A DNA stretch of 64,000 nt from Chryseobacterium sp. Tr-659 (GTDB taxonomy: Bacteria > Bacteroidota > Bacteroidia > Flavobacteriales > Weeksellaceae): the NCBI RefSeq assembly GCF_011752975.1, contig NZ_VWWP01000008.1, positions 62,001 to 126,000 of the forward strand, in the 5' to 3' direction. The position numbers were made by a program, and so were the translations under genes. Shown piece after piece: positions 42,278-59,563 of this stretch (the stretch's first letter is position 1; each line of letters starts with the position of its first letter). Below the pieces are notes generated by a model. The model was not told where the DNA came from. It searched no databases and worked only from the letters and a program-made list of their open reading frames with translations.

Positions 42278-42351
42278 GGTCCTATAGCTCAGTTGGTTAG
42301 AGCACCTGACTCATAATCAGGTGGTCCCTGGTTCGAGCCCAGGTGGGACCA
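42278..42351 (+). tRNA. tRNA with anticodon CAT (probably Ile2, otherwise elongator Met)
   Basis: A full cloverleaf is visible: acceptor stem GGTCCTA/TGGGACC, D arm GCTC...GAGC, anticodon stem CCTGA/TCAGG with loop CTCATAA, and T arm with GGTTCGAGCCC. The discriminator A is at 42351 and no CCA is encoded. C4-G69 and C5-G68 pairs in the acceptor stem are those reported to favour lysidine modification by TilS, as in E. coli tRNA-Ile2, whereas E. coli elongator tRNA-Met has U-A and A-U there. I therefore lean to Ile2. This tRNA borders the mobile island and is a possible integration site, but no second copy of its 3' end was seen in the window. Confidence 0.95.
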
Positions 42352-42366
42352 CTACAAAAACTCGAC

Positions 42367-42391: not shown

Positions 42392-42658
42392 ATTTCTAAA
42401 AATTACAACGCTGAAATATACGCTTAAACTTCCTCGGAAAAGCCTTGCTGGATTGACTTCGCAAGGATGTAGTTCTATTTTAAAATAAAAATTAAAATGA
42501 TTTTGTGATTATAAAACTACAGAAGTTATTTTCCTATTTTATATCTGTATTGCCTTTACCTAAAGAGATTGAGAAAATTTCCATTTTCGTCAATCTTCCA
42601 AAATCTTTATATATCCTCGAATATTTTTATATTAGTTCCTTCTAAAAGTCTTGTTTAT

Positions 42659-43582
42659 ATGTCTAAACATCAGTTATCTCAAATATCTATTAAATCAGTT
42701 ATCAAAATTTTTACATTTTTAGATTACTTTTTGGAGGAGGAAAGCCTAAATCCTCAATACTTTAAAGATAACATGGAGAAATTTACTTTTCAAGAGAGAT
42801 ATTTTTTATACTTGTATGCATCTGAGTATTTTTCGGATAATAATGATAGCTTCTTAAATCAATGGATTAATAACATTGCCTCTAACAATGGGATTGATGT
42901 TACCGTTGACTATTTAACACTGATAGATAACAATGCCAAATCTCTCAGAAAGATTACTAACGACCAGAAGTTAAAGATAGTTGAAAAAGAATTTTTAAAT
43001 TTAAAACAAACAATAGATGATGAGAATAAGTATATTATTGAAAAAACAATTCCGATTTTCGAAGAAGATAACGGAGACTTTAGAACATATCAGAAAATAC
43101 CGTTGTATGTAAGTCACGAACATCGAGAGAATTTTAAAAATTTTTTCTTTAAAACATTAAAAGATTCTTTAGATTCAGGCTCCATAGAAAAACTGTACTT
43201 TAATACTTTCGAATTTACTGGAAATATTACTGAATTAAAATTACTGTATCTAAGAGTAGATCAGAAATCTTTATTAGAACAAGCTTTCAAAATTATTACT
43301 AATCAATATAAAAAGGATATTCTAGAACGTATGAAGGCAAAGTATATTGATAAAATTAATTCCAAAATTGAAGAGAGATTAGCCAATGCAACAGCTGTAC
43401 GAAAGAGATTTATTCCTAAAAAATTACGGTATACTAAAGTTACTCGAATACATTTTATGAAAGCATTATACAACGCTTTCCCTCATATTAGAAACGCTTA
43501 TGGCAAATCTCTTATCACAAATCCTTCTTTATCACTAGACCATTTTCTTACAACACGAATTAAAAATCTCAAAAAAGCGTAA
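42659..43582 (+). CDS. Hypothetical protein of the integrative element
   Basis: A 307-residue soluble, helix-rich protein. I recognise no family. The N-terminus (MSKHQLSQISIKSVIKIFTF) precedes an acidic middle. The last 70 residues are strongly basic (ILERMKAKYIDKINSKIEER ... RKRFIPKKLRYTKVTRIHF), which would fit nucleic-acid binding. The ATG at 42659 is preferred to an in-frame TTG 30 codons upstream. It is the first gene inside the island, 307 bases after the tRNA, on the same strand as the replication genes. Confidence 0.65.
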   Translation: MSKHQLSQISIKSVIKIFTFLDYFLEEESLNPQYFKDNMEKFTFQERYFLYLYASEYFSDNNDSFLNQWINNIASNNGIDVTVDYLTLIDNNAKSLRKITNDQKLKIVEKEFLNLKQTIDDENKYIIEKTIPIFEEDNGDFRTYQKIPLYVSHEHRENFKNFFFKTLKDSLDSGSIEKLYFNTFEFTGNITELKLLYLRVDQKSLLEQAFKIITNQYKKDILERMKAKYIDKINSKIEERLANATAVRKRFIPKKLRYTKVTRIHFMKALYNAFPHIRNAYGKSLITNPSLSLDHFLTTRIKNLKKA

Positions 43583-43640: not shown

Positions 43641-43670
43641 TAATTTTGCTTTGTCAAGTTGAGACAAAGC
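43641..43670 (+). promoter_or_regulatory. -7 box and operator-like inverted repeat of the HTH gene
   Basis: TAATTTTG (43641-43648) fits the -7 consensus. Immediately after it, GCTTTGTC at 43648-43655 pairs perfectly with GACAAAGC at 43663-43670 (8 bp, 7-base gap), ending directly at the ATG of the HTH gene. It could be an operator for autoregulation or a hairpin that hides the start. Confidence 0.5.
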
Positions 43671-43967
43671 ATGGATAACAACGCACTAACATACCATTTG
43701 ATAAAAGTCTTTTCGGAACTGGAGATTCGGATAGCAGGGAGAGTACTATCTCTGCTGACGGAGCAAGGCATAGCTGCAGGAGTGCCAACAGGTTCAGAGA
43801 AATTTTTAACAGATAAACAGTTGTGCGAACATCTTCAGATCTCAATTTCACACTTCCACAACTTTAAGAAAGCTAATTCCAATTTCCCTTCTTATGCGAT
43901 CGGTAAGAATGTTCGGTATAAGCTTTCTGAGGTGGAGGAATTTTTAAAGTCTAACCCCAAAAAGTAA
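43671..43967 (+). CDS. Small helix-turn-helix protein (excisionase/AlpA-like)
   Basis: A 98-residue DNA-binding protein. The C-terminal half (about 45-95) holds FLTDKQLCEHLQISISHFHN and VRYKLSEVEEFLKS, the winged HTH_17/MerR-like fold used by excisionases and AlpA-type regulators of mobile elements. The N-terminal helix pair is unnamed. The ATG at 43671 is preferred over an upstream TTG because the promoter -7 box lies just before it. The primase/helicase-like gene follows 9 bases later. Confidence 0.8.
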   Translation: MDNNALTYHLIKVFSELEIRIAGRVLSLLTEQGIAAGVPTGSEKFLTDKQLCEHLQISISHFHNFKKANSNFPSYAIGKNVRYKLSEVEEFLKSNPKK

Positions 43968-43976
43968 AGAAATAAA

Positions 43977-45539
43977 ATGGGAAACAAAGGAAAAATAGAA
44001 ATTCCGTTTGAGGTTACTGATAAAGGTAAGGTGAGGTTTGATACTTACGGATATATAGGTTATGCCGAAGATTTGGGATTCAGAAGAACTAAAATCTTTG
44101 AAGTTGAGCATCTTGTCAGAATACAGAATAATATTGTAGGGATCGTCAGTAAATCGGACATCATACAGACAGCACTCGAATATCTTGACGAGAATTTTGA
44201 TCAGGAATCAGAACTCGAGTACGGAGTAACCAAATATGAAATCAAAAATGCTTGGATCAATAAAGCACGGCCGATTTCAGAAGATGCAACATTATCGTTT
44301 TTGCGATATGAAGAGCTTAAACCACTAAGGGATACACAGGAAATAAGCTATTTCTGCTACCAAAATACAGTGGTAAAAGTACAGGCAAAAACTCTCGAAA
44401 CTGTAGATTATGAGGATTTAGAACATCATGTTTTTTACGATCAGATCATTCAGAGGGGTTTTAGTTATAATGAGCCTTGTTTGGAAGAGTTTATTCCATT
44501 TAGAGCGTTTATACACAACGTTGCGGGAAATATAGAAGAGAGAATTCTTTCATTCGAGGTAATGATTGGCTATATGCTTCATACATTCCAAAATCCTGCA
44601 CTGGCAAAGGCGGTGATACTGCTTGATAGTATTGTTAATGAGATCGGACTGATAGAGGGAGGAACAGGAAAATCCTTGTTGGTAAGAGGCTTAAGCTATA
44701 TGAGGTTTCTGTGCAATATTTCAGGAAAAGATTTTTCCAGCAGTTCCGGTTTTGCATTCCAAAGGGTAACGCCTTTCACCAGTATTGTAGCCATTAATGA
44801 TATTAAAAAAAATCAAAATTTTGAGGGATTCTTTGGCAGAATAACAGACGGGTTTACCATAAGCAGGAAGTACAAGCATGATATTTTTATCGCATTTGCG
44901 TATGGTCCGAAAATGATTATCACAAGCAACTACTATGTAAAATCTCCGTCAGGAAACAGTACAGAAAGGAGGAAACATGAAATTGAACTGTCAACTCACT
45001 ACGGAAAAGATTTAACAGTTTACGATGACTTCGGACATCACTTCTTTGATGAGTGGAACGAGAATCAATGGTTAGGGTTTGACCACTATATGCTACACTG
45101 CGTTAAGCTGTACCTTGAAAAAGGTTTGATAAAAGCGCCTCCTATCAACTTAGAGTTAAGAAAACTTATTAGCGAGGTTGGACTGGAACTGATGGAATTT
45201 TTAGATCAGATATTACTGACCAAAACCAAGCTTCATAAAAAAGAATTATTTGCTGAATTCAGGAAAGAATCAATAGGATCACGGTATCAGCTGAGTTTGA
45301 GAGGATTTACCATAAGGCTTAAAAAATATCTGGAATATAAAGGTATAGGCTATGTAGAAACTCCGAGTAATACTAAGGTATTTGTTGAAATCATTACCGC
45401 AAAGCCTGATGAACAGTTGCTTTTAACGATCAATGATGTTAAGACTGACTACAAAACCGTTGATACTCCTAATAAAATGACACGATTAGTCAATCATTTA
45501 CAGAAATTTTTCAGTACTGATAATAGCACCAAAAATTAA
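43977..45539 (+). CDS. P-loop primase/helicase-like replication protein
   Basis: A 520-residue protein with a Walker A motif EGGTGKSLL (about 227-235) and nearby acidic FTSIVAINDI (Walker B-like, about 268) and MIITSNYYVKSPSGNSTERR (sensor/Arg-finger-like), the layout of phage- and plasmid-type SF3 helicases (D5/VapE relatives). The N-terminal 180 residues are a separate domain without an obvious primase motif. The C-terminus is a winged-helix-like region. It likely unwinds DNA at the element's origin. It is 9 bases after the HTH gene and 17 before the exonuclease gene. Confidence 0.75.
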   Translation: MGNKGKIEIPFEVTDKGKVRFDTYGYIGYAEDLGFRRTKIFEVEHLVRIQNNIVGIVSKSDIIQTALEYLDENFDQESELEYGVTKYEIKNAWINKARPISEDATLSFLRYEELKPLRDTQEISYFCYQNTVVKVQAKTLETVDYEDLEHHVFYDQIIQRGFSYNEPCLEEFIPFRAFIHNVAGNIEERILSFEVMIGYMLHTFQNPALAKAVILLDSIVNEIGLIEGGTGKSLLVRGLSYMRFLCNISGKDFSSSSGFAFQRVTPFTSIVAINDIKKNQNFEGFFGRITDGFTISRKYKHDIFIAFAYGPKMIITSNYYVKSPSGNSTERRKHEIELSTHYGKDLTVYDDFGHHFFDEWNENQWLGFDHYMLHCVKLYLEKGLIKAPPINLELRKLISEVGLELMEFLDQILLTKTKLHKKELFAEFRKESIGSRYQLSLRGFTIRLKKYLEYKGIGYVETPSNTKVFVEIITAKPDEQLLLTINDVKTDYKTVDTPNKMTRLVNHLQKFFSTDNSTKN

Positions 45540-45556
45540 CAATTAAAATTTAAACA

Positions 45557-46069
45557 ATGGCAAAAGTAATAATAAAACAAAAGATCCTTGTCATAGACTT
45601 GGAGACTACAGGATTAGACCCATTTACACACCATATAGTGAGTGTTGCTATATCTGGTGAAAAAGGAAAGGGATTTAACATTGTTCTCCCTTTTTATAAA
45701 AATAAAGCCAAAGCTAAAGAATTCTTACAACCAATTTTACCGATACTCGAAGATGAAACGATTACAAAAGTCTTTCATAACGCGAAGTTTGATTTAAAAT
45801 TTTTTCATCAGTACGGGATTGAAATTAAAGGTGAAATCAGGGATACGATGATTTTAGATTATTTCTTGGATCCCAATCGTAAAACCCACGGATTAAAGGA
45901 AATTTCAGAGTTCCGCCTCCATTATCATCAGATTTTCTTTGAAGAAATGAGGAAAGGCAGGGATATTACTGAGGTTCCGAAAGAAGAGCTGACGAAATAT
46001 GCCTGTGAAGATGCAGACCTAACCCTGCAATTGTATCATTATTTAAATCAACAATTAAATCACAACTAA
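45557..46069 (+). CDS. 3'-5' exonuclease of DNA polymerase I type
   Basis: A 170-residue DEDD-family exonuclease. VIDLETTGLDPF (Asp14, Glu16) is motif I, VFHNAKFDLKFFHQYGI motif II and KYACEDADLTLQLYHYL motif III of the polymerase A proofreading domain. Here it is a stand-alone gene whose stop is one base before the ATG of the polymerase gene, so the two halves of a PolA-like enzyme are encoded separately and probably assemble. Confidence 0.9.
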   Translation: MAKVIIKQKILVIDLETTGLDPFTHHIVSVAISGEKGKGFNIVLPFYKNKAKAKEFLQPILPILEDETITKVFHNAKFDLKFFHQYGIEIKGEIRDTMILDYFLDPNRKTHGLKEISEFRLHYHQIFFEEMRKGRDITEVPKEELTKYACEDADLTLQLYHYLNQQLNHN

Positions 46070-46070
46070 A

Positions 46071-47351
46071 ATGGATATAGCAATCAATACATTAGAACAT
46101 CAATTAATTAATGTTCTCGTTAAAATCGAACTCAATGGTGTAAAAATAGACATCAAAAAATTAAACGGTGTAGAACATCAGCTATTGAACCGACTACATA
46201 CGACCACCGAAAAAATAATGGAGGTTGCAGGAACGGAAATCAACCTTAATAGCAATGAACAGCTGAGTACTCTCCTTTTTGAAACGTTGGAACTTCAACC
46301 GAAAGTTACTTCCAAAGGTAAATCAGGATTGATTTCTGTTGATAAATCGCACTTGGCAAAACTTAAAGACGACCACGAAATAATATCCCTCATCTTGGAT
46401 TACAGGAAAATCAACACTTTGTTAAGTTTCTGTAATCAATTGAAAGAAGCTCACCCAAAAACAAAGAGGCTTCATTGTAACTTAAATCAGATAGGAACGG
46501 CAACAGGACGATTTAGCTGTAGTAATCCGAATTTACAGAATATTCCTAATGTAAAATTAAAGGACAAAGACAACGAAATTGATGAACTTAAAATTATCGC
46601 TTCCAAGTTCAGAGAGGTTTTTATTGCTGAAAAAGGATGTGTGCTGATTGGTGCGGATTACTCACAGATCGAGCTGAGGGTAATGGCAGAAATGAGTCAA
46701 GATGAATATTTATTGAAAGCCTATAATAATGATATAGATATTCACAGATTGACCGCTTCTAAAGTGTTCAATTGCAGTAAAATTTCAGAAGTAACGGAGG
46801 AACAAAGGAAAATTGCCAAAACAATCAACTTTGGACTAATCTACGGAATGTCAGCGGTAGGTTTAGCGGAATCTCTTACAGCAATTACAAAGAAACATCA
46901 TTCTAAGGAAGATGCTGAAAAAATGATGTCAGATTATTTTGCTCAGTTTAAAGGGGTAAAATCCTGCTTGGAAGGATTAGTAGATTATGCAGATCATCAT
47001 GGTTATTCCAGAACTCTATTCGGAAGAACCAGACCAATTCCTCAGCTCGCTTCTAACGATATGGCAATTCGTGAAAAAGGGAAACGCCTTGCAATGAACT
47101 CTTCTGTACAGGGAAGTGCAGCCGATATTATTAAAATGGCAATGGTGAACTGTGATAAAGCCATTGCAGAGAAAGGTTTGAAGTCTAAAATGATCCTTCA
47201 AATTCATGATGAGTTGCTGTTCGAAGTTCCCGAAAATGAAGTGGAAATCGTAGAAAAACTTATAAAATATGAGATGGAGAATGTCGTAAAACTTTCTATA
47301 CCTCTTACAATAGAGCTTGGTAAAGGGGCTAATTGGGCAGTTGCCCATTAA
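46071..47351 (+). CDS. Family A DNA polymerase, polymerase domain only
   Basis: A 426-residue PolA palm/fingers domain. Motif A is GADYSQIELRVMAEMS (catalytic Asp near 196). Motif B is RKIAKTINFGLIYG (about 246-259). Motif C is QIHDELLFEV (about 377-386, second catalytic Asp). TGRFSCSNPNLQNIPN near 145-160 is the template-binding segment. It lacks the 5'-3' nuclease, and the proofreading domain is the preceding gene. It is much shorter than chromosomal PolA (about 930). It presumably replicates the mobile element. Confidence 0.95.
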   Translation: MDIAINTLEHQLINVLVKIELNGVKIDIKKLNGVEHQLLNRLHTTTEKIMEVAGTEINLNSNEQLSTLLFETLELQPKVTSKGKSGLISVDKSHLAKLKDDHEIISLILDYRKINTLLSFCNQLKEAHPKTKRLHCNLNQIGTATGRFSCSNPNLQNIPNVKLKDKDNEIDELKIIASKFREVFIAEKGCVLIGADYSQIELRVMAEMSQDEYLLKAYNNDIDIHRLTASKVFNCSKISEVTEEQRKIAKTINFGLIYGMSAVGLAESLTAITKKHHSKEDAEKMMSDYFAQFKGVKSCLEGLVDYADHHGYSRTLFGRTRPIPQLASNDMAIREKGKRLAMNSSVQGSAADIIKMAMVNCDKAIAEKGLKSKMILQIHDELLFEVPENEVEIVEKLIKYEMENVVKLSIPLTIELGKGANWAVAH

Positions 47352-47377: not shown

Positions 47378-48283
47378 ATGAACCACAATAATTTATACAA
47401 AACGCAGGTAGACTTTATATCTATAAAGGTAGATGGACAAGAAGCATTAAATTTGAACTGGGATAATCTTATTGATCATCCTACTTTACGTAACCAGTAT
47501 ACATTAATTGAGAAAGTTAATCCAAATTACAAAAACTTCTCTCTTTATGTTAAGAGCTCTGGAGAGGTTCTGATTAACCTCAGCATTCCATATTTTTTAT
47601 TCGGACATAATTACCATACAGTAGAAAATGAAGAATTGCAGGATTTTAATGTTATCATTAAAAAGATTCTCGGGATAGATATTAGAAAATCAGAAGTCAT
47701 TGAACTTGAGTACGGAGGGTACTGTAACTCAGAAATAAGTACTGAAGAATTTCTGAAGAAAATTTTGAGGATGCATAATCATGATCTTATTTATTCAAAA
47801 TCCTATATGAAGATGTTTGAAGATAAAAAACAAGGTATTTGCTTCAAAATATATGATGCTGTTGAAAATGCGAAGCAAAAAAGAACTTACACTGCTGAAC
47901 GTTTTATTAACGAACATATTATCAAATATGAAATAAAAGTGAAAAAACCTGAGATAATTTTCAAAAGTAAATTGCTGTTCGAAACTCTACTTGTAGAACC
48001 AGCTCAAAATTCAGCTTTAGTTCAACTTAAGAGAATGCTTACTAAATTAAAAAATCAATTGGTTCTACCTTACGAGAAAAAAGTAGAACCCGTAAAGTAT
48101 GATTTGATAAATATTATTTATACAGCATTGAAAAATATTGAGAATCATCATCCTGAAAATATATCAATATTTAAGCAACTAATGGATGTAATTGATGAGA
48201 GCCCTTTGTCTTCTTCCCAAAAAAGCAAGAGAAGAAAAGCAATTCAGAACTTGGAAGAGGAATATGACTTTTTACCATTCTAA
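47378..48283 (+). CDS. Possible replication initiator (phage gene II/RstA-like), uncertain
   Basis: A 301-residue protein. LINLSIPYFLFGHNYH followed by IIKKILGIDIRKSEVIELEY recalls the conserved SLPKFLxGHN region and downstream LGI...VxRID strand of filamentous-phage-type rolling-circle replication initiators (gene II/X, RstA). KIYDAVENAKQKR and a second half rich in Lys/Glu helices follow. I cannot place a catalytic Tyr motif with confidence. Position after the polymerase in the same direction supports a replication role. Otherwise it is a hypothetical element protein. Confidence 0.45.
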   Translation: MNHNNLYKTQVDFISIKVDGQEALNLNWDNLIDHPTLRNQYTLIEKVNPNYKNFSLYVKSSGEVLINLSIPYFLFGHNYHTVENEELQDFNVIIKKILGIDIRKSEVIELEYGGYCNSEISTEEFLKKILRMHNHDLIYSKSYMKMFEDKKQGICFKIYDAVENAKQKRTYTAERFINEHIIKYEIKVKKPEIIFKSKLLFETLLVEPAQNSALVQLKRMLTKLKNQLVLPYEKKVEPVKYDLINIIYTALKNIENHHPENISIFKQLMDVIDESPLSSSQKSKRRKAIQNLEEEYDFLPF

Positions 48284-48391: not shown

Positions 48392-49639
48392 ATGGCAACA
48401 TTTAAATTTATCCTGAGTAAGCTTGATTATCAGAAGAAAAAGAAAAGTCCTGAATCCCTTCTGATGCTGAGGTATACTCATAAAAAGAAAACAACTCATT
48501 TTTCAACTCATAAGAATATTGATGAAAAATATTGGGATGAAAGAACACAAATGGTAAAGAGAAGTTATCCTGGTTCTGATAGGTTTAATATTTACATTAA
48601 GGGGATTCTTCAGAAAGTAGAAGATATTGTTAATGAAATGCTGATAAAAGGAGATGATCCGACCACAGATTACGTGAAATCTATCTACAATTCTAATAAG
48701 AATGGAACGGAGAAAAAGAAGCAGTATACTTTCTTTGAATATGCTGAAAAATACTTAGAAAATGGTAAAAATCGCCTTACGACAAGTACAATAAAAAGCT
48801 ATCGTACTGCCTTGAACAAGCTTGAAGATTACCAAGAGTATAGTAGAAATAAGCTAGACTGGATGAGCTTTGATATTGATTTCTATTATGACTTCATGGA
48901 TTTTTATACAGGAATTGAAGGCTTGACAAATAACGGCTTCGGGAAAATCATCAAAAACCTTAAAGCAATAATAAACTCGGCAACTGAGGACGGCTATAAT
49001 ACTTTTACAGGCTATCAACACAAAAATTTTAAGACCGTAAGAGAAGATGTTAACAATATTTACCTCAGTGAAGATGAGATTTCAAAACTTTTAAAATTAG
49101 ATTTAAGTAATGATAAAACAATGGAAAGAACAAGAGACTTATTTGTATTTGGCTGTTATACAGGGTTGAGGTTTAGTGATTTCAGCCAAGTGAAGCAAGA
49201 GCATATTGTTGGTGATATTCTCAGGATCAAAACAATCAAGACGAGTGAATGGGTGAATATTCCGATTCTTCCAGCAGTGAGGGAGATCATGGATAAGTAC
49301 AAAGATAATCCGAATAATCTTCCGAAGTCCGTATCTAATCAGACAATGAATAGGAATCTGAAAGATTTAGGGGAAATGGCAAAAATAAATGATAAGATTC
49401 TAAAAATTAGAAATAAAGGTAAAGAAAGGATCGAAGACAATCTCTTAAAATATCAGATGATTTGCACTCATACTGCTAGGAGATCATTTGCCACCAATAT
49501 GTTTAAAAGGGGTGTTCCTACTCGGGTAATTATGAATATAACAGGACATAGGACTGAAAAAGCATTTAACAGCTATATAAAAATATCGCAGGATGAAAAC
49601 GCTGAACTGCTGAAAGAATATTTTGATAAATCGGCATAG
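48392..49639 (+). CDS. Tyrosine recombinase (integrase)
   Basis: A 415-residue phage-type integrase. An N-terminal arm-binding domain covers about 1-90 and a SAM-like core-binding domain about 105-210 (YTFFEYAEKYLENGKNR). The catalytic domain holds GCYTGLRFSDFSQVK (first Arg), CTHTARRSFATNMFKRG (His-x-x-Arg), NITGHRTEKAFNSYIKI (second His and the Tyr nucleophile). All catalytic residues are present. It should integrate and excise the element, with the bordering tRNA gene the probable target. Confidence 0.95.
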   Translation: MATFKFILSKLDYQKKKKSPESLLMLRYTHKKKTTHFSTHKNIDEKYWDERTQMVKRSYPGSDRFNIYIKGILQKVEDIVNEMLIKGDDPTTDYVKSIYNSNKNGTEKKKQYTFFEYAEKYLENGKNRLTTSTIKSYRTALNKLEDYQEYSRNKLDWMSFDIDFYYDFMDFYTGIEGLTNNGFGKIIKNLKAIINSATEDGYNTFTGYQHKNFKTVREDVNNIYLSEDEISKLLKLDLSNDKTMERTRDLFVFGCYTGLRFSDFSQVKQEHIVGDILRIKTIKTSEWVNIPILPAVREIMDKYKDNPNNLPKSVSNQTMNRNLKDLGEMAKINDKILKIRNKGKERIEDNLLKYQMICTHTARRSFATNMFKRGVPTRVIMNITGHRTEKAFNSYIKISQDENAELLKEYFDKSA

Positions 49640-49686: not shown

Positions 49687-49732
49687 AATTGTTAAATAGT
49701 TATTTTTGATAAATGTAAAATTTCATATAATT

Positions 49733-50398
49733 ATGCAAGAGTATTACTATTATATTTTCGTTAATGGTGTTGATAGTGAATCTTTGAAAAAAAGCGAACT
49801 ACCACAAATTCGTAAGCTGAGGAAAGATTTTGAAATGATTCCCCAATTTACAGACAGTGATGAAGGAGAAGGACCATTTGATTCAATAATAGATTTGAAG
49901 AAAAGATCTATTATTTTTTCCAAAATAAAATTACAAAAGCATAAAGAGCGTGTATTGGCAAATAAAAATATTAAGGAGATTGCAAACTTTGTTAAGATTC
50001 CTTTTGAAAAATCCTATGAATTGACTTTTATTAAGGCATTCCATCATATAAATGTTGGAAAGATATATAAGAAGGAAGTTAAAGGAGTACATTTTTTTAA
50101 TCCTGATAGAATAAGAATATTAGAGGTTTTAGACAAGAATGAGGTAACCGGAGTTTATTGTGCTAGAATAAGTAAATATGATAGTAACATTGATGAATGG
50201 ATTGAAAAGAGTGAGCCAACCCATTTTTTTCCTGATGATTGGACTCTAGAAAAGCTATTTTCGGAACTAAATTATGCTTATGAGAATAAGATTCATCAAG
50301 ATGGAAATATATATTTATCAGAAACTAGAGATCATATTAAAGTTAAATTGATTATAAAAGAATCCGAGATCATAACTATTTATCCATTATTAGATTAA
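49733..50398 (+). CDS. EndoU-like nuclease domain protein
   Basis: A 221-residue protein. The C-terminal half resembles the bacterial EndoU nuclease domain. KAFHHINVGKIYKKEVKGVH supplies two His-containing segments, VTGVYCARISKY the following strand, and EKSEPTHFFPDDWTLEKLFS the Lys and FFPxxW region. EndoU domains are RNases and often the toxic module of secreted polymorphic toxins. Here it is a short stand-alone protein with an uncharacterised N-terminal region and no export signal. No obvious immunity gene is adjacent. The ATG at 49733 is preferred to an in-frame TTG at 49706. Family call is by motif recognition. Confidence 0.6.
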   Translation: MQEYYYYIFVNGVDSESLKKSELPQIRKLRKDFEMIPQFTDSDEGEGPFDSIIDLKKRSIIFSKIKLQKHKERVLANKNIKEIANFVKIPFEKSYELTFIKAFHHINVGKIYKKEVKGVHFFNPDRIRILEVLDKNEVTGVYCARISKYDSNIDEWIEKSEPTHFFPDDWTLEKLFSELNYAYENKIHQDGNIYLSETRDHIKVKLIIKESEIITIYPLLD

Positions 50399-50911
50399 TG
50401 AAAGTTGTTGAATATAGTTTCTTTCAGTGTCTTTTTATTACAGAGGAAGGCACTCAAAGAAACGTGGGTTTATTTGTTTATCATTAATTAATGTAAACAT
50501 TACACTTAGAAAGAAATACGACATAACCTCTTGTTAAATATCGTTTGCAAACATTTTAGCATTTAACATGGCGAAGTCCCTCAATAATTTTTGATGATAC
50601 AACAGGAATTAGCAGTAATCCTATGTGTTTAAAAATCGAAGCAATAAATCATGAAATTTTCTTTGTAGTAAATGTTTTCGGAGATGTTCTACTTGATTAA
50701 TGACTTAAGTTGATATAGATTCCCAATTGAAAATTTCCAATTGGAGAACATTCCTTAAAATCGTTCATAATATTTTTATTTTTTAAATTTTTCATTGATT
50801 TATAATGAATCAAGAAGAATTACTATTTCAACTTCAAAGGATTATTAAATGATGATTGATGAGCGTTCTTTTGAAAAAGAAAGCGAAGCGGTTTACCGCT
50901 TCAGGTTATCT

Positions 50912-50946
50912 CTTTAATTAAAGTTCTTAATTAAAGTCTTTAATTA
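50912..50946. repeat. AT-rich 12-14 bp repeats, candidate DNA-unwinding element
   Basis: CTTTAATTAAAG (50912), CTTAATTAAAG (50926) and CTTTAATTA (50938) are near-identical palindromic AT words spaced 12-14 bases. They are directly adjacent to the iterons, the usual place for the melting region of theta-replicating plasmids. Confidence 0.65.
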
Positions 50947-50956
50947 TATACTTAAA

Positions 50957-51088
50957 TATAAGTGCAAGATTGGTGATTTTGAAATGCATTTTTGGTAATA
51001 ATGAAATGTAAATTTGATGATATTGAAATGCAAAAATGGTTAAATTAAAATGCAATATTAGGTGGATTGAAATGCAAAATTGGTGATA
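50957..51088. repeat. Iteron array, six copies at exact 22-bp period
   Basis: Copies start at 50957, 50979, 51001, 51023, 51045 and 51067. The consensus begins TTGAAATGCAAAATTGGTGA. The GAAATGcA core is nearly invariant and the tail varies. The strict two-helical-turn period and position upstream of a winged-helix initiator-like gene identify replication iterons. Confidence 0.85.
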
Positions 51089-51206
51089 AAGCCGTACTGT
51101 TACTCCCTGAAAATATAGTCTTGGTAGTCATTTTATCTTGGAGGAGCTAATGATCCCCCGTGATTCCAACAGAGAAACCGAGTAGTACAAAATAAAAAGA
51201 GAACAT

Positions 51207-51224
51207 AAAGTAGTTGACTACTTT
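51207..51224 (+). promoter_or_regulatory. Hairpin in the leader of the initiator-like gene
   Basis: AAAGTAG (51207-51213), loop TTGA, CTACTTT (51218-51224), a perfect 7-bp stem. Several GTAGT words follow. It may take part in copy-number or expression control; role is inference. Confidence 0.4.
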
Positions 51225-51321
51225 TCGTAGCCCGTAGTAGGATGTAAAAGAGATGAAATACGAGGAGAAAAACTAAGGAGCAGTCCTAAAAATAGTAGTA
51301 GTAAAATTAGAGAGCAGTGCA

Positions 51322-51957
51322 ATGAAAAAATATATCAGGAAAGATAATGAGTTAATAGATCCTTTTATTGAGGATAAGATGAATAAATTAACGGTAGAAG
51401 TTCCTTTTGAGATTCTATCGAATTCGGAGTTATCACTTAATGAAAAACTTTTGTTGGGATTAGATTTCTCTTTCAAAAGTAAACTTGGATTTAACCAATT
51501 AACAAATAAAAATGTAGCAGAACTGTTCAGCATACACCCCAATATTGTTGGAAATTGCAGAAAAAAGCTTGTTGAAATGAACTATTTAATAAGACAGGGA
51601 AGAAAATATTTCCTGACGGACCACTATAAAAGTGCTGAAAAATCAGAAGAAAATCACGGAAATATTGAGAATAGGTACCGAAGAAATATCAAAATTCCTT
51701 TTGAAATTTACTCTAACACAGCTTTAAAAACAGGAGAAAAGCTTCTGTGGGGAGAGTATAATTCAATTAGTAAAGGAGAAAAAGAGTATTTTGCTTCAAG
51801 AGAGTATACGGCAAACCGCCTCAGTGTAAGTGTTGAAAGTGTATCGAATTGGACGAAATCTCTATATGAAAAGGATTTATTTGAGGACTATGTGATTATA
51901 AGTGGATATTGTTCTCATCAAAGAAGAATCATTACCTATCGCTTTGATGATAAGTAA
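51322..51957 (+). CDS. Two-winged-helix replication initiator-like protein
   Basis: A 211-residue protein made of two similar halves. LTVEVPFEILSNSELSLNEK (about 21-40) and IKIPFEIYSNTALKTGEKLL (about 127-146) each open a winged-helix unit, with recognition-helix-like NVAELFSIHPNIVGNCRKKL and TANRLSVSVESVSNWTKSLY. Tandem winged helices are the architecture of iteron-binding Rep_3-type initiators, and the gene is flanked by iterons on both sides, so I infer a replication initiator. It could also be a DnaD/replication-O-like accessory protein. An AGGAG sequence lies upstream. Confidence 0.65.
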   Translation: MKKYIRKDNELIDPFIEDKMNKLTVEVPFEILSNSELSLNEKLLLGLDFSFKSKLGFNQLTNKNVAELFSIHPNIVGNCRKKLVEMNYLIRQGRKYFLTDHYKSAEKSEENHGNIENRYRRNIKIPFEIYSNTALKTGEKLLWGEYNSISKGEKEYFASREYTANRLSVSVESVSNWTKSLYEKDLFEDYVIISGYCSHQRRIITYRFDDK

Positions 51958-51959
51958 AA

Positions 51960-51990
51960 TTGAAGTGCGAAACTGGTGCTTTGAAGTATA
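51960..51990. repeat. Two degenerate iteron copies after the initiator-like gene
   Basis: TTGAAGTGCGAAACTGGTGC (51960-51979) matches the upstream iteron consensus at about 16 of 20 positions. A second, shorter copy (TTGAAGTA) starts at 51981. They begin 3 bases after the stop codon, so iterons flank the gene on both sides. Confidence 0.7.
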
Positions 51991-54093: not shown

Positions 54094-54381
54094 ATGGATA
54101 TAACAGAATTAAAATTGAAATTTGAAATACAGTTAGCAACAAATGTATCTGAAATGGAAAAGATTCGTTCATTCAGACAGTTGAGGCTTCTATTAGATAA
54201 ATATGGTTATTTTGAGGGAGCGAAGAGATTAATAAATGGTAAGGAAACGTTAGGACTAAGGGATTTAATTTTGGCTGATAGAGTAGATTTGTCAATAGAA
54301 TATTTGGCTTTATTAGAAGAATTTCATCCTTTATTTAGTGAAGATGAATTAAAAAAATGTAAAAGAAAATTAGACATTTGA
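54094..54381 (+). CDS. Hypothetical small protein, 95 residues
   Basis: A helical soluble protein (FEIQLATNVSEMEKIRSFRQ, GKETLGLRDLILADRVDLSI, FHPLFSEDELKKCKRKLDI). I recognise no family. An open frame of 95 codons with a sensible amino acid composition supports a gene. It lies alone between the decayed lipoprotein and the TIR-like gene. The 254 bases after it (54382-54635) contain a small hairpin CGACAA/TTGTCG and the promoter of the next cluster. Confidence 0.5.
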   Translation: MDITELKLKFEIQLATNVSEMEKIRSFRQLRLLLDKYGYFEGAKRLINGKETLGLRDLILADRVDLSIEYLALLEEFHPLFSEDELKKCKRKLDI

Positions 54382-54635: not shown

Positions 54636-55124
54636 ATGAGTGAGAAGAAATATAATATATTTATTAGTCATTATGTAAAAGATGATAAACACGTTCAAAC
54701 CTTAAAATCTAAATTAAAAGATAAAGGATTTGGAGTTAGAAACTTTTCGGTTGACAGTACAAAACATCATACAGGAAGACGACCTTCAGATGCAAGAATA
54801 AGAAGACTTTTAAGTATAAGAATAAAAGCTGCTAGTACTTTTATATGTTTGATTGGCAATGATACTCATAAAAGAAAATGGGTGGATTTCGAAATTAAGA
54901 AAGCGCAATCAGAAGGGAAAAAAATTATAGGCATATACACACATGGGAATAAAGACAGTGTAAAAATACCTGAAGCATTGCAGAAATACGGTAATTCAAT
55001 TTTGGGATGGAATTCAATTGATAAATTGGGAGAGGTTATTACAGGCAAAGAGACAATTTTTGAGAATTCAGATGGTTCATCTTATTCTAACGTATTCGAA
55101 ATAAATAGGGTGAAATGTGGATAA
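54636..55124 (+). CDS. TIR-like (DUF1863/ThsB-type) protein
   Basis: A 162-residue protein with the TIR-like DUF1863 (MTH538) fold. KYNIFISHYVKDDKHVQTLK is the first strand and helix. STFICLIGNDTHKRKWVDFE with the acidic residue of WVDFE, the usual catalytic position, and IKKAQSEGKKIIGIY complete the core. ThsB proteins of Thoeris belong to this family and make cyclic ADP-ribose variants from NAD. Here the gene leads a plus-strand cluster with Nmad2, dCTP-deaminase-fold, MazG-like and HMUDK-like genes. It may be the sensor or effector of that cluster. Confidence 0.8.
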   Translation: MSEKKYNIFISHYVKDDKHVQTLKSKLKDKGFGVRNFSVDSTKHHTGRRPSDARIRRLLSIRIKAASTFICLIGNDTHKRKWVDFEIKKAQSEGKKIIGIYTHGNKDSVKIPEALQKYGNSILGWNSIDKLGEVITGKETIFENSDGSSYSNVFEINRVKCG

Positions 55125-55131
55125 ATGTATT

Positions 55132-55761
55132 ATGAAGATTTACTCATATGTAGTTGACCATGATTTAGGATTAGCGCCAAATCCTTTTGGTAATTATTGC
55201 ACATTAGCTGTATGTAAACCGAATATTAGGAAAAGTAAAAAACTAAATATTGGAGATTGGATTGTGGGCACAGGTTCAAAAGCTTTAGAAAATATAGCAA
55301 AGCGACCTTATATCAGCTATTTGATATACGCAATGAAAATTACGGAGATTATTCCATTTGAAAGCTATTGGGAAGATCCTCGTTTTCAATATAAAAAGCC
55401 AACTGTTAATGGATCTTTGGTAACGATGTATGGAGATAATTTTTATCATAAAGTAGGAGATAAATGGATTCAGGAAAATTCAGCACATTCTAATTCAAAT
55501 GGAAGTGTAAACGATAAACATTTGAAAACAGATATAGAGGGTAAAAATGTGTTGATTAGTGATAGTTTTTATTATTTTGGGAATAATGCTCTAAAAATTC
55601 CAAATGAATTTTTAGAAGCCTGTCATACAGGAATTGGGCAAAAGATAGTTCCGGAGAGTATAACAGATAAATTTATTGAATGGTTAATCAATCATAAAAA
55701 AGGTATTAATGGGGATCCAATTAACTGGAAACAACACAGTAACTTAAAAATATTAATTTAA
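55132..55761 (+). CDS. Nmad2 (nucleotide modification associated domain 2) protein
   Basis: A 209-residue protein. MKIYSYVVDHDLGLAPNPFG, then YCTLAVCKPNIRKSKKLNIG with GDWIVGTGS, is the signature of the Nmad2 family, predicted by genome-context work to take part in synthesis or handling of modified DNA bases. ISDSFYYFGNNALKIPNEFL and GIGQKIVPESI near the end also fit the family. The ATG at 55132 is preferred over a GTG at 55117 as it matches the family start. It is 7 bases after the TIR-like gene and 1 base before the dCTP-deaminase-like gene. Biochemical activity is unknown. Confidence 0.8.
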   Translation: MKIYSYVVDHDLGLAPNPFGNYCTLAVCKPNIRKSKKLNIGDWIVGTGSKALENIAKRPYISYLIYAMKITEIIPFESYWEDPRFQYKKPTVNGSLVTMYGDNFYHKVGDKWIQENSAHSNSNGSVNDKHLKTDIEGKNVLISDSFYYFGNNALKIPNEFLEACHTGIGQKIVPESITDKFIEWLINHKKGINGDPINWKQHSNLKILI

Positions 55762-55762
55762 T

Positions 55763-56674
55763 ATGGCATTTTTAGGATCAGAGAGTTTAAAAAACTTATT
55801 ATCCGGATCATCAATAATTCTGGATGATAAAGGTGATAGTTGTTATGATGAAAGTAGAGTAGAGCAAGCATGTTATGCATTGTCACTAGGTGTTGAGGCA
55901 TATAGAACTGATAATAAAGATCGAAAAATTGAGAATTTAACAGAAATAAATAGAACTGTTGAGATTAATCCGGGACAGTTTGCATTACTGATGACTAAAG
56001 AATTTGTAAATGTCCCTCAGGATATGTTAGCATTTATATCTATTAAAGCTAAAAATAAACTAAAAGGATTAGTTAATGTTTCAGGTTTTCATGTTGATCC
56101 AGGTTTCAGGGGAAGACTTCTTTTTTCAGTATATAATGCTGGTCCATCTACAATAACCTTACAAACAGGGGATCCTTACTTTTTAATTTGGTTTACCGAA
56201 TTGGATAAGTCTACTGAAGTGAAAGATCAATATAATGAAAAAGAAAATCATCACCAAGGACAATCTACAATAAAATTAGAGTATATAGACGCTTTAAAAA
56301 GAGGTGAACTAGCGTCTCCTAATGCCCTATTGGAGAAGATAAATAAAAGTGAGGATTTGCTTAAACTGGCTTTAGAACAACATTCCTCTACAATAACTCA
56401 AAAAATTTCTAAAACTGAAGATTCATTACAAAGAATAATTTGGATTGGAAGTATAGTGATTGGCGCAGCTATTGCTATAGGGCTGAAAGTATTATGGGAT
56501 AATGAGCAATATAAAAAGGGATATATGAAACGAGTGGAAGATGAAAAGGTAGCAAAAGAAATTACTAAAAAGGTTAGTGATTTTACGAAGGATACTATAT
56601 ATTTGCATAAGATAGATAGTTTGATTTCTAGTAGGTTACAAGAACAAAAACAGAAAGATGTCAATAAAAAATAA
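55763..56674 (+). CDS. dCTP deaminase/dUTPase-fold protein with membrane anchor, catalytic residues altered
   Basis: A 303-residue protein. Residues about 10-160 have the dCTP deaminase/dUTPase trimer fold (VEQACYALSLGVEAYRTD, INPGQFALLMTKEFVNVPQD, GFHVDPGFRGRLLFSVYNAG). By eye against E. coli Dcd, the catalytic Glu of the LEFYN strand is Ser here (FSVYN), and the SSLAR segment that carries Ser111 and Arg115 is KAKNK. A helical linker (about 180-222), one membrane helix (about 225-246, WIGSIVIGAAIAIGLKVLW) and a charged tail follow. It may bind nucleotide without deaminating it, at the membrane. It overlaps the next gene by 17 bases. Confidence 0.75.
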   Translation: MAFLGSESLKNLLSGSSIILDDKGDSCYDESRVEQACYALSLGVEAYRTDNKDRKIENLTEINRTVEINPGQFALLMTKEFVNVPQDMLAFISIKAKNKLKGLVNVSGFHVDPGFRGRLLFSVYNAGPSTITLQTGDPYFLIWFTELDKSTEVKDQYNEKENHHQGQSTIKLEYIDALKRGELASPNALLEKINKSEDLLKLALEQHSSTITQKISKTEDSLQRIIWIGSIVIGAAIAIGLKVLWDNEQYKKGYMKRVEDEKVAKEITKKVSDFTKDTIYLHKIDSLISSRLQEQKQKDVNKK

Positions 56675-57245
56675 ATTTCATTATACAGACGAAGGGATTC
56701 CATTCTTAGGTATTGAAACAATACCTAACGAATTTGTTGTTGATTTTGTGGAGATTAATGAAAAAGAATATCCTCAAGTGAAAGTATCAGTCTCTAATTT
56801 ACAAGCAGGAGACATTATTAATGATAATTCTTATATAGACGACGGTTACAGATATCACGATGTTTTTCATTATACATTTGCTACATTATTGGGTTGGTCA
56901 CCATGTACACGAGCGATGCTTAAAAGAAAAAGAAAAAGTGATAAATTAATTGATAGAGTTGAGGATGGTGCTAGAGCAATTATAACAGAAGAAGCAATAT
57001 CTCTTATGTTATTTAATAGTGCAAAAAAAAATGATTTTTATTCTGGAATGAATAAAGTAGATCCTGCAATATTGGAGTTGATTAAATTAATGACCAATCC
57101 CTTTGAAGTAAAAAACAAAACTATTGATGAATGGGAAAATGCCATATTAAAAGGTTATTCATTATTTTGTAACTTAATTAAAAATAAAGGAGGTAGAATT
57201 AAGTTTAATACTTTAAATAAAACAATTGATTATCAAGTTATATAA
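56658..57245 (+). CDS. MazG-like nucleotide pyrophosphohydrolase domain protein
   Basis: A 195-residue protein. YRYHDVFHYTFATLLGWSPC followed by DRVEDGARAIITEEAISLML gives the helical, Asp/Glu/His-rich pattern of the MazG-like family found with base-modification genes. It differs clearly from housekeeping MazG at 2158. The start overlaps the dCTP-deaminase-like gene by 17 bases, so translation is coupled. A role in removing or checking (modified) nucleoside triphosphates is inference. Confidence 0.7.
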   Translation: MSIKNKFHYTDEGIPFLGIETIPNEFVVDFVEINEKEYPQVKVSVSNLQAGDIINDNSYIDDGYRYHDVFHYTFATLLGWSPCTRAMLKRKRKSDKLIDRVEDGARAIITEEAISLMLFNSAKKNDFYSGMNKVDPAILELIKLMTNPFEVKNKTIDEWENAILKGYSLFCNLIKNKGGRIKFNTLNKTIDYQVI

Positions 57246-57271
57246 TATACTGATAATTACAATTTTAATAT

Positions 57272-57293
57272 TGCTGGTGTAACCAGCATTTTT
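57272..57293 (+). terminator. Attenuator-like hairpin before the HMUDK-like gene
   Basis: TGCTGGT/ACCAGCA (57272-57278 and 57282-57288, loop of 3) followed by five T, between the MazG-like stop and the HMUDK-like start. It may reduce readthrough into the last gene. Confidence 0.6.
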
Positions 57294-57298
57294 AATTT

Positions 57299-58270
57299 AT
57301 GAATATTTATACTAAACGCAAACGACCAACAGCTTCGAAAATTTTTGATACTTACTGGAGGTTTGCATACGAGCGTCAAAATATATTTTTTAACAGAATT
57401 AATAAAATAGCTCCATTAACGAATGATGATATTTTAAATAAATATAAATTTACAAATGCTTATAGAGCATCGGACAGGGTAAGTCAATATCTTATAAATG
57501 AGGTGATATATAAAGAAAATAATTTTTCAGAAAAAGATTTATTGCTGAGAATATTGTTATTCAAAATTTTCAATAAAATTGAAACTTGGGAAATAATACA
57601 ATCTCATTTAAGTAAAATAGATCTATCAAGTTTTTCTTTTAAAAATATAAGTCAATTGCTAGAAGAACAAATGTTCATGAAGAACTCAATTTATTCAGCA
57701 GCTTATATCATGGCATCGGGAAAAAGTTTTTACGGATTTGACAGAAAACATGACAACCACTTAAAACTATTAGAGAAAGAATTAATTAAAGGGAATTTAT
57801 TCGAAAAAATTAAGGATTCTAAGTCTATTGAAGAAGTCTATTTAATTCTAAAAACATTGCCAACATTTGGAGAGTTTTTAGCTTTTCAGTTAACGATTGA
57901 TATTAATTATAGCAATATCATCGATTTCAGCGAAATGGATTTTATTGTTGCTGGTCCTGGAGCAAAAGACGGAATCCATAAGTGTTTTTCAGATTTTGGA
58001 GATTATAATTATTCTGACATAATTAAGTACGTAGCTGAAATACAAGAAAAGGAATTCGAAAGATTGGGATTAGAATTTAAAAACTTAGGAAATAGAAAAT
58101 TACAGCTGATAGATTGTCAAAATTTGTTTTGTGAGACAGATAAATATTCAAGAGTAAAGCACCCCGAATTTATAGGGAAATCAAAAAGAATTAGGATTAA
58201 GCAAACTTATAAACCAAAAGAAATTGCTATTAAATATAATTATCCCCCGAAATGGGGGATAATTATATAA
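57299..58270 (+). CDS. Putative DNA base hypermodification protein (HMUDK helical-domain type)
   Basis: A 323-residue protein. The start TASKIFDTYWRFAYERQNIF, then YKFTNAYRASDRVSQYLINE, is the signature I know from proteins annotated as putative DNA base hypermodification proteins / 5-hmdU DNA kinase helical domain. A helix-hairpin-helix-like stretch (LKTLPTFGEFLAFQLTIDIN) and SEMDFIVAGPGAKDGIHKCF follow. No separate P-loop kinase domain is present, so a glycosylase- or pyrophosphorylase-type activity is also possible. It is separated from the MazG-like gene by 53 bases with a hairpin. Its last codons form part of a strong terminator hairpin. Confidence 0.75.
   Translation: MNIYTKRKRPTASKIFDTYWRFAYERQNIFFNRINKIAPLTNDDILNKYKFTNAYRASDRVSQYLINEVIYKENNFSEKDLLLRILLFKIFNKIETWEIIQSHLSKIDLSSFSFKNISQLLEEQMFMKNSIYSAAYIMASGKSFYGFDRKHDNHLKLLEKELIKGNLFEKIKDSKSIEEVYLILKTLPTFGEFLAFQLTIDINYSNIIDFSEMDFIVAGPGAKDGIHKCFSDFGDYNYSDIIKYVAEIQEKEFERLGLEFKNLGNRKLQLIDCQNLFCETDKYSRVKHPEFIGKSKRIRIKQTYKPKEIAIKYNYPPKWGIII
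58234..58268. terminator. Bidirectional terminator hairpin overlapping the HMUDK-like gene end
   Basis: A perfect 15-bp inverted repeat (arms 58234-58248 and 58254-58268, five G-C pairs at the top, GAAAT loop) runs through the last 12 codons of the gene and ends in its stop codon. It separates two convergent defence clusters. Confidence 0.8.
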
Positions 58271-58283
58271 CTTAGCGGATAAA

Positions 58284-58865
58284 CTATTTTTTTGCTAACC
58301 ATTCTTTTAAAGGAGTAAGGGTATGTCTGCCATTGGATAAGGGTGTTTTAACATAATAACCCTTAGAAATATAACTTCCATTTACATATTTATTATCTCC
58401 ATTTTCATAATCTATGTAAGGGTAAATTGATAGATATTCAGACCCTCTAAATGATTTGTTTGTTCTATTAATAGGGATTAAAGCTATATGTTGAATATAT
58501 TTAGCAGCATCACCTAAGCCAAGTTCCCAATTACACCATTTGGAATTAATCGCATTTTCAGTTGCAACTAGAATAAATTTATCTGCAATTTTTATTTTTT
58601 GTTTTAACTTATGTGCGGTTTCTGCATTAGTATAAGCAGGCATATTAGGATCCATCCAATCAACATATACATTTATTCCTTCATTCTCAAGGAAGCCCAC
58701 TACATCTTGCAAGATCGTATATTCGTCGTGTTTGTGAGATAAGAAAATCATTGGTTTAGTCTTATCTCTAGATTGGCTCTCGTTAAGATAAGTTATATTA
58801 TCAGCAGAAAAAGTTTTTGTTCTCGATCGATACTGTGAAAGTTCAGATTCTGAAATAAAGCTCAT
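58284..58865 (-). CDS. thsB: Thoeris TIR protein ThsB (second copy)
   Basis: A 193-residue TIR domain protein. PMIFLSHKHDEYTILQDVVG is the first strand and helix, GINVYVDWMDPNMP the second strand, and INSKWCNWELGLGDAAKY contains the catalytic-type Glu of TIR NADases. ThsB enzymes sense phage infection and produce a cyclic ADP-ribose signal that activates ThsA. The gene is 2 bases after the first thsB on the same strand. Several ThsB proteins per ThsA are common and widen phage recognition. Confidence 0.88.
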   Translation of the reverse strand: MSFISESELSQYRSRTKTFSADNITYLNESQSRDKTKPMIFLSHKHDEYTILQDVVGFLENEGINVYVDWMDPNMPAYTNAETAHKLKQKIKIADKFILVATENAINSKWCNWELGLGDAAKYIQHIALIPINRTNKSFRGSEYLSIYPYIDYENGDNKYVNGSYISKGYYVKTPLSNGRHTLTPLKEWLAKK

Positions 58866-58867
58866 TA

Positions 58868-59563
58868 TTAGTCAAGGTTTATGTGGATGTTATACAATTC
58901 TTTATTATTTTTAATTTCTATAGCTTTATCTATATATGTATTATATTCGGATAAAAACATGAAATCATCCCATTTAACCACTTTAAAGAAAGAGGATTCA
59001 TTGCTTACATTAATTTTTAAACCATTACATTCTCTATATTCAGGTTCTTTTATATTAAATGTATTATCCTTCAATATTTTAAATAGTCTGTTCGTATGGT
59101 GTGTTGTACAATTGCATTCAGGCTTAGAAGTGTAATACCAAGTGTAAGTTCCAAGCTCATCGGGGAGTACGATACCTAATATAGCATTCATCTGCTTAGT
59201 ATGGCTTCCTGAAGGGATTGTTCTTAATGAGTATGAAACTTCCCAAGGTATCCATTGATCTTTTTCATTTTCACTGATTTTCATTCCTTTTGAAATTAAA
59301 ACGATAGTAACAGATGATTGCCTAATTTTAGATTTTAAGGATGTTTCTATTGTTGAGTCTGAGAAGTCTGCTAGGCTTTCGCCATCTTTTTCTCCTAAAT
59401 TTATATGCTCATTACCAATCTTATTTTGTAAAAGATCAACATAATCACGAACTCTCGTTTTTCGAGAAATATAGCTAAACGTATTAAGGTCTAGCTTTTT
59501 TTTATTTAAATCTTTTACTAACTCATCTGCATATTTATATGAAACAAATATTTTTCTGCCCAT
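58868..59563 (-). CDS. thsB: Thoeris TIR-like protein ThsB (first copy, DUF1863 type)
   Basis: A 231-residue TIR-like protein. MGRKIFVSYKYADELVKDL opens the fold, SVTIVLISKGMK is the central strand, and DQWIPWEVSYSL holds the conserved Glu. This is the DUF1863/MTH538 subtype typical of Bacillus ThsB. A C-terminal extension (about 150-231) includes a Cys/His cluster (ECNCTTHH). Its ATG overlaps the thsA stop by one base (TAATG), so it is translated with thsA. Confidence 0.88.
   Translation of the reverse strand: MGRKIFVSYKYADELVKDLNKKKLDLNTFSYISRKTRVRDYVDLLQNKIGNEHINLGEKDGESLADFSDSTIETSLKSKIRQSSVTIVLISKGMKISENEKDQWIPWEVSYSLRTIPSGSHTKQMNAILGIVLPDELGTYTWYYTSKPECNCTTHHTNRLFKILKDNTFNIKEPEYRECNGLKINVSNESSFFKVVKWDDFMFLSEYNTYIDKAIEIKNNKELYNIHINLD

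Follow-up and report, generated by a model that had tools for sequence, protein, structure and literature searches.

Positions 50912 to 51990 of the window, the 64,000-nucleotide stretch of DNA that was analysed, hold a set of short direct repeats, an adjoining AT-rich region and the gene for a 211-aa protein. Together with the conserved non-coding sequence around them, the parts of this putative origin are:

50415 to 50692, plus strand: conserved non-coding block with a strong stem-loop, at the left edge of the origin module
50885 to 50902, plus strand: conserved, terminator-like hairpin, GAAGCGG-TTTA-CCGCTTC (sequence and alignment)
50912 to 50963, plus strand: AT-rich 13-bp repeats, a candidate melting region (TRF and alignment)
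50959 to 51090, plus strand: iteron array, six units of 22 bp
51091 to 51321, plus strand: conserved leader from the iterons to the initiator gene (alignments)
51322 to 51957, plus strand: predicted initiator (Rep) gene, 211 aa, tandem winged helix (profile matches)
51962 to 51978, plus strand: solitary degenerate iteron 3' of the initiator gene (similar sequence there in the window, L003, L019 and L021)

The six direct repeats at an exact 22-bp period described in an earlier note on this DNA are confirmed. The units start at about positions 50959, 50981, 51003, 51025, 51047 and 51069, a step of exactly 22 bp, and form the highest-scoring tandem array of the window (TRF score 117, among 23 rows). 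The best 22-bp self-match covers 49 of 66 positions and exceeds every one of 200 first-order-Markov shuffles, which reached 28.3 on average and 37 at most. Words within three mismatches of the best iteron unit occur three times in the window, all inside the array, against 0.10 expected; a looser degenerate iteron pattern (up to three mismatches) is no commoner than chance window-wide, with 22 occurrences against 19.2 expected. The non-random part of the iteron signal is the in-phase cluster. As to the three AT-rich words that the earlier note placed beside the repeats, AT-rich repeats do adjoin the array, but CTTTAATTA is found exactly only twice on the plus strand (at 50912 and 50938), its palindromic core being read twice more on the minus strand. 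Positions 50908 to 50962 have a GC content of 14.5%, and a more apt description than the CTTTAATTA words is one of about four AT-rich units, each of 13 bp.

A profile search for the initiator gene found it in 7 of the 320 genomes of the family, in 2 of the 296 of the order and in 2 of the 395 of the class, counts that each include the window's own genome and come from overlapping groups; the sole carrier outside the genus was G405. The nine copies (the window, L003 from Chryseobacterium sp. E1, L019 and L020 both from G206, L021 from G271, L023 from G242, L007 from G190, L022 from G267 and L025 from G405) are all that were found, if the two pieces of the interrupted G242 gene count as one. Their contigs range in length from 57 kb to 4.9 Mb, and there is an integrase in the neighbourhood. 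Upstream of the gene, a 22-bp array is present in eight of the nine copies, and each of these beats all 200 of its own shuffles. G405, the most distant member, has the gene without an iteron array: 63 of 200 shuffles reach its 22-bp score, and no tandem array scoring 50 occurs in the 20 kb there. The five clade-A arrays comprise 6, 5, 5, 4 and 6 units and differ in the alignment by clean, whole 22-bp blocks; the AT-rich 13-mers are kept beside the array, and the leader from array to gene is about 230 bp long.

The clade-B initiators (L007, L020 and L022; 36-50% identical) are accompanied by a 22-bp repeat that is related to that of clade A yet different. There, initiator and array lie beside another integrase and adjoin the 3' end of mnmE/trmE, and no matches to the polymerase backbone described below were seen around these three copies in the stretches read. 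The origin-initiator module is thus common to two kinds of integrative element. Around L007 and L020 we also noted a three-gene cluster (780, 238-239 and 396-429 aa) that looks ATPase-like by eye.

The layout is that of an iteron replicon, with in-phase direct repeats by the initiator gene in eight of nine copies and an AT-rich region adjoining. The earlier description of a full theta-type origin goes beyond what this layout shows: an exact DnaA box (TTWTNCACA, exact boxes only) was absent from the 450 bp upstream of all nine initiator copies and likewise not found near the origin in the window, and a theta mode of replication is a prediction.

The two halves of the 211-aa protein align to each other (HHalign, 32% identity over 66 columns, E 1.9e-7). 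HTH_36 is matched by all eight homologues scanned (E up to 1, the best being 1.9e-10), and so is the phrog_19658 profile, 'replication initiation protein' (E up to 0.1, the best being 1.1e-12; window copy 1e-10). The window's own protein lies below the Pfam cut-off for every family, with HTH_36 at 0.002 and Phage_rep_O also sub-threshold. MarR was matched by four of the eight homologues (best E 0.0038), and Rep_3 and RepA_N were absent among the 18 Pfam families that the eight match at E up to 1. A sequence search of the PDB returned only MarR/MntR-type winged helices at E 0.0017 or worse. An AlphaFold model built with one homologue added had a mean pLDDT of 31.9 and was not usable, so the fold assignment rests on sequence profiles. 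Because its halves are alike and it matches HTH_36 and phrog_19658, the protein is predicted to be a tandem winged-helix protein of initiator type, which bears out the two-winged-helix, initiator-like gene of the earlier note.

The origin lies inside an element that begins in the 3' end of a tRNA-Met gene. Its left end and the genes that we refer to as its backbone are:

42278 to 42352, plus strand: tRNA-Met (CAT), the integration target (ARAGORN and Rfam)
42340 to 42351, plus strand: attL core CAGGTGGGACCA, in the 3' end of tRNA-Met
42569 to 43582, plus strand: p337, backbone gene 1 (no Pfam match at E 0.01)
43659 to 43967, plus strand: xis102, HTH_17/excisionase-like regulator (HTH_17 at 22 bits, cut-off 27; phrog_66 excisionase 6e-6)
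43977 to 45539, plus strand: hel520, helicase of DUF5906 type with Walker A GGTGKS (DUF5906 at 20.5 bits, cut-off 27.6)
45557 to 46069, plus strand: exo170, 3'-5' exonuclease of a family-A DNA polymerase as a separate ORF (DNA_pol_A_exo1 3.4e-26)
46071 to 47351, plus strand: pol426, polymerase domain of a family-A DNA polymerase (DNA_pol_A 3.3e-129; motifs A, B and C)
47378 to 48283, plus strand: p301, element marker gene
48392 to 49639, plus strand: int415, tyrosine integrase (Phage_integrase 1.5e-13, Arm-DNA-bind_5 7e-14)

A second copy of CAGGTGGGACCA, the attR core, lies on the same contig at window-coordinate 65538-65549, 1.5 kb past the window end, and is contained in a conserved block at 65417-65590 that was delimited by blast of the contig against relatives. 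An exact 14-mer scan for attR found none; the 12-bp core emerged from the comparison of relatives. The element so bounded is 23.2 kb in size. Five of nine relatives compared (L027, L028, L029, L031 and L032) have an insertion-free site, in which the tRNA is directly followed by sequence like that to the right of attR, the join itself having been read in L028 and L029. To the right of attR, about 5 kb differs between genomes, and homology is back at 70711 in L028 and L029. The elements of G206 and G405 also begin at tRNA-Met with the same core. The integrase, the directly repeated att sequence at either end and the unoccupied site of relatives thus mark an integrative element; with matching att cores and an excisionase-like gene, these findings agree with the earlier suggestion of an element that can leave.

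At L021:1100-1160, the DNA in front of the left core is not that of a tRNA, an indication that this element sits second in a tandem at a tRNA-Met hotspot. The 3' end of tRNA-Met was also found duplicated 19-45 kb downstream in four genomes (G163, G218, G237 and G020), so other islands probably use the site too.

The backbone gene order p337-xis102-hel520-exo170-pol426-p301-int415 is the same in the window's genome (G000), E1, G271, G242, G206 and G405, the last a carrier from another family, and all six have the initiator. Each of the other five elements has a p337 homologue in the corresponding position, at 25-39% identity. The helicase matches phrog_28855 at 3.3e-59, aligned to positions 370-730 of the 804 of that profile; it lacks the N-terminal portion that longer relatives have, and among these relatives one carries the annotation primase-helicase. 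We would read the element's helicase as SF3-like. Polymerase motifs A, B and C were present in four of four copies checked, the exonuclease motif I pattern in two of three and the helicase Walker A motif in three of three. All six carrier genomes have a second, separate PolA that is 42-43% identical to that of the element, with frames of 956-984 aa in five genomes and of 496 aa in the frameshift-rich assembly G291 (E1). The E1 backbone (L003:946-6905) is itself broken by many frameshifts and is either decayed or the product of a low-accuracy assembly (G291 completeness given as 75%).

The marker gene p301 was matched in 6 of 320 family genomes, and the strong matches fall in five of these, precisely the ones in the family that have a clade-A initiator. 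It was matched in 4 of 395 phylum genomes, namely G000, G405 and two weak cases (G986 and G1176). Around the weak matches (G031, G986 and G1176), at most an integrase-like match accompanied p301 in the surrounding 19-20 kb, and these candidates were dropped. Among 21 element ORFs scanned against Pfam, no primase, PolB, relaxase, conjugation, capsid or terminase domain was recognised; the scan leaves out a 95-aa ORF (54094-54381), a 106-aa ORF (window-coordinate 64757-65077) and two ORFs that run antisense to genes in the scan.

Backbone DNA is 90% (E1), 87-89% (G271) and 83% (G242) identical to the window, and the corresponding values for a core gene, a comparison that consists of one 3.7-kb gene, are 83%, 76% and 77%. 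Because the backbone is thus 83-90% identical between species and the core gene 76-83%, the comparison would be fitting for horizontal transfer of the backbone. The origin-initiator block, at 76% (E1), 75% (G271) and 71% (G242), is no higher than the core gene; since its 71-76% lies below the core gene, the transfer argument covers the backbone and not this block. As a guess, faster divergence of the origin block would fit selection for different copy-control specificities.

The element also carries cargo, with genes of defence type among it:

54636 to 55124, plus strand: ThsB-like TIR protein
55117 to 58270, plus strand: Nmad2, DCD, MazG_C and HMUDK_hel genes
58284 to 61002, minus strand: Thoeris-type genes, two ThsB TIR proteins and ThsA (SIR2-STALD; PADLOC 3.6e-186)
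61426 to 63987, minus strand: LRR-Roc-COR-TIR protein, 853 aa, TIR C-terminal

The genes of Nmad2, dCTP-deaminase-like, MazG_C and 5-hmdU-kinase type (helical domain) beside a TIR gene are of a kind that modifies nucleotides or bases and are possibly an undescribed defence cluster. Directly 3' of the integrase gene, at 49706-50398, is a gene for an EndoU-type nuclease, to which a partial match in two pieces occurs at the same place in G206 (L065:10696-10897).

We propose that the repeats are the oriV, and the 211-aa gene the initiator gene, of an integrative element of 23.2 kb that lies in the 3' end of tRNA-Met, and that they work as set out here, a reading to which we give a probability of roughly 0.76. 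Its functional parts (binding, excision and copy number) are predicted from sequence. Because it has an apparent start site, a starter protein, a helicase and a DNA polymerase, the element probably excises and copies itself. Recombination between the two CAGGTGGGACCA cores, carried out by the integrase and the excisionase-like protein, would free the element as a circle. The tandem winged-helix initiator may then bind the 22-bp iterons, whose step of about two helical turns would place them on one side of the DNA, and would melt the adjoining AT-rich 13-bp repeats. At the melted repeats the element's helicase could enter, and its exonuclease and family-A polymerase would copy the circle, with priming perhaps aided by the host, as no primase domain was recognised. 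The solitary iteron and the varying array length would fit copy-number control through titration of the initiator or handcuffing. Transfer between cells probably needs a helper, because no relaxase, conjugation, capsid or terminase domain was recognised in the 21 scanned ORFs.

Several known elements share parts of this design, as described in the extracts of the cited papers that were available. The excised form of SGI1 replicates from an iteron oriV beside rep, with four 17-bp iterons and AT-rich repeats (PMC7433901), and the present element resembles it, to the extent of that extract, as an integrated island with an iteron oriV by a rep gene. It differs from SGI1 in its 22-bp repeats, in an array that lies upstream rather than downstream of rep, in the absence of an exact DnaA box, in another initiator type, in its own polymerase and helicase and in another integration site. 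The gene set and site (trmE) of SGI1 were not found here, the site being tRNA-Met and no conjugation gene occurring among the scanned ORFs; the clade-B elements, at the 3' end of mnmE/trmE, share the target of SGI1 as it appears in the available part of PMC8409611. The PLE satellites of Vibrio cholerae are integrated, have an iteron-binding RepA_N initiator and act against phage (extract of PMC7145576). Like them, the present element combines an element-encoded initiator with an iteron origin in an integrated element, but it has no RepA_N match, a tyrosine rather than a serine integrase, its own family-A polymerase and no known helper. The earlier remark that plasmid origins are unusual inside chromosomes has to be qualified in this light, iteron origins inside islands being known from SGI1 and PLE.

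Pipolins, in the extract of PMC7385651, are integrated at tRNA genes, encode their own PolB (piPolB) and vary in cargo. The likeness extends to tRNA-gene integration, an own DNA polymerase and variable cargo, whereas here the polymerase is of family A with exonuclease and polymerase in split ORFs, and a helicase and an iteron initiator are added. The PICMI satellites of Vibrionaceae, of which the one described is 6.1 kb at fis, have integrase, AlpA-type and DUF3987/DUF5906-type genes (extract of PMC10803314), a combination also seen here as integrase, AlpA-type regulator and DUF3987/DUF5906-type gene. In contrast to PICMI, the present element is 23.2 kb at tRNA-Met and carries PolA and Rep, with HTH_17 and DUF5906 both sub-cut-off. 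Tycheposons are a further element class for comparison (PMC10872708, in extract). Iteron-replicating islands are already known (SGI1, PLE), and the present variant is notable for its own family-A polymerase. Among the matches listed from the open-licence PMC literature, as available in extracts, there was neither an iteron-replicating island of Flavobacteriia nor an element with both a family-A polymerase and an iteron initiator.

An alternative that is compatible with the origin reading is that the element is a phage satellite: a helper phage would trigger excision, the element would replicate from the origin and be packaged by the helper, and the defence genes would block competing phages. 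We regard this as quite possible, if somewhat short of an even chance. Of the four PICMI marker types in the extract of PMC10803314, three are represented here (integrase, HTH_17/AlpA-type and DUF5906-type genes), set against a site that is not fis and HTH_17 and DUF5906 scores below cut-off. The defence-type cargo, the lack of a conjugation domain among the scanned ORFs and the iteron-binding initiator of PLE (PMC7145576, in extract) speak for a satellite as well. The size argues against it, 23 kb exceeding the 7-20 kb given for satellites in the available part of PMC13376191, as do the searches of viral sequence: positions 42353-64000 of the window have no near DNA match in phage records, p301, helicase and integrase have no close relative in viral contigs, and the helicase has just distant phage relatives (five records). 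The initiator was unmatched in 50,697 phage records, and a clade-B initiator gave short matches only, at E 0.02 or worse. Two IMG/VR matches of the initiator profile (L053 and L054) cover just 53-64 residues and were dropped, the ORFs having been read in L053.

The repeats might instead be a set of operators by which the winged-helix protein regulates either its own gene or the operon of the backbone, with no origin function. Winged-helix proteins are often regulators, the array is upstream of the gene, and both the MarR matches of the homologues and the best PDB matches, which are regulators, would agree with such a role. We consider it unlikely, given that the AT-rich 13-mers are conserved beside the array, that some 230 bp of leader part array and gene in clade A, that the best profile matches are replication initiators and that the element's polymerase and helicase need an origin.

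Lastly, a true, recently integrated plasmid with an embedded replicon is very unlikely: the iteron layout does resemble a plasmid oriV, and helicase relatives occur in three plasmid records of Salinibacter and Persicobacter (27-32% identity), but a search of 72,556 plasmid records, among which Flavobacteriia plasmids may be few, gave no initiator match at E 0.01, origin DNA and p301 are likewise unmatched there, the contigs with the copies measure between 57 kb and 4.9 Mb, and the element is bounded by site-specific att cores, located at tRNA-Met. The integrated plasmid, one of two possibilities raised by the earlier note, is thereby not borne out. The origin DNA was unmatched in phage records as well, and a clade-B initiator had only short plasmid matches, at E 0.05 or worse. 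Because these plasmid and phage searches returned no initiator or origin match, the origin is taken to be plasmid-like in form, its lineage being found, as judged by these sequence searches, only in integrated elements. Together with the five phage records, the helicase relatives are 27-35% identical, and the integrase has relatives in seven plasmid records of Bacteroides, Parabacteroides and Phocaeicola (29-35%). Two Salinibacter plasmids with helicase relatives (L055 and L056) also carry a terminase-family gene and ParA and are possibly phage-plasmid-like.

If the origin reading is true, it adds to the Bacteroidota a type of replicating island that brings its own family-A polymerase, provides a compact origin-initiator module for Flavobacteriia and illustrates the spread of defence genes, Thoeris among them. 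Since close relatives have gained or lost iterons by whole units, their arrays would amount to a natural copy-number series. More broadly, there may be a distinct Flavobacteriales family of self-replicating integrative elements at tRNA-Met that bring most of a replisome with them: the initiator, the helicase, proofreading and family-A polymerase activities on separate subunits, and p301, possibly as an accessory factor. Such elements would parallel the pipolins with a polymerase of family A, would replicate without relying on the host replicase and would shuttle anti-phage systems. We offer this wider view tentatively, at slightly under even odds.

The non-coding surroundings of the origin gave further observations. 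The leader at 51091-51321 is rich in GTAGT/TAGTAG words; it is conserved in clade A and, by eye, recurs in clade B. Presumably these words resemble DnaA-trio-like triplets. The leader gave no clear support for a single RNA structure: the covariation term of its consensus fold was unfavourable (4.48), and for this reason we make no RNA claim for it. At gathering thresholds, Rfam matched only tRNA in the window and L003. The block at 50415-50770 has one strong, invariant stem with almost no covariation and a z of only -1.9 for 196 nt. Its part at 50416-50692 recurs in a clade-B element at L022:4784-5065, far from the initiator gene there, and for that reason is perhaps an independent module, perhaps an RNA.
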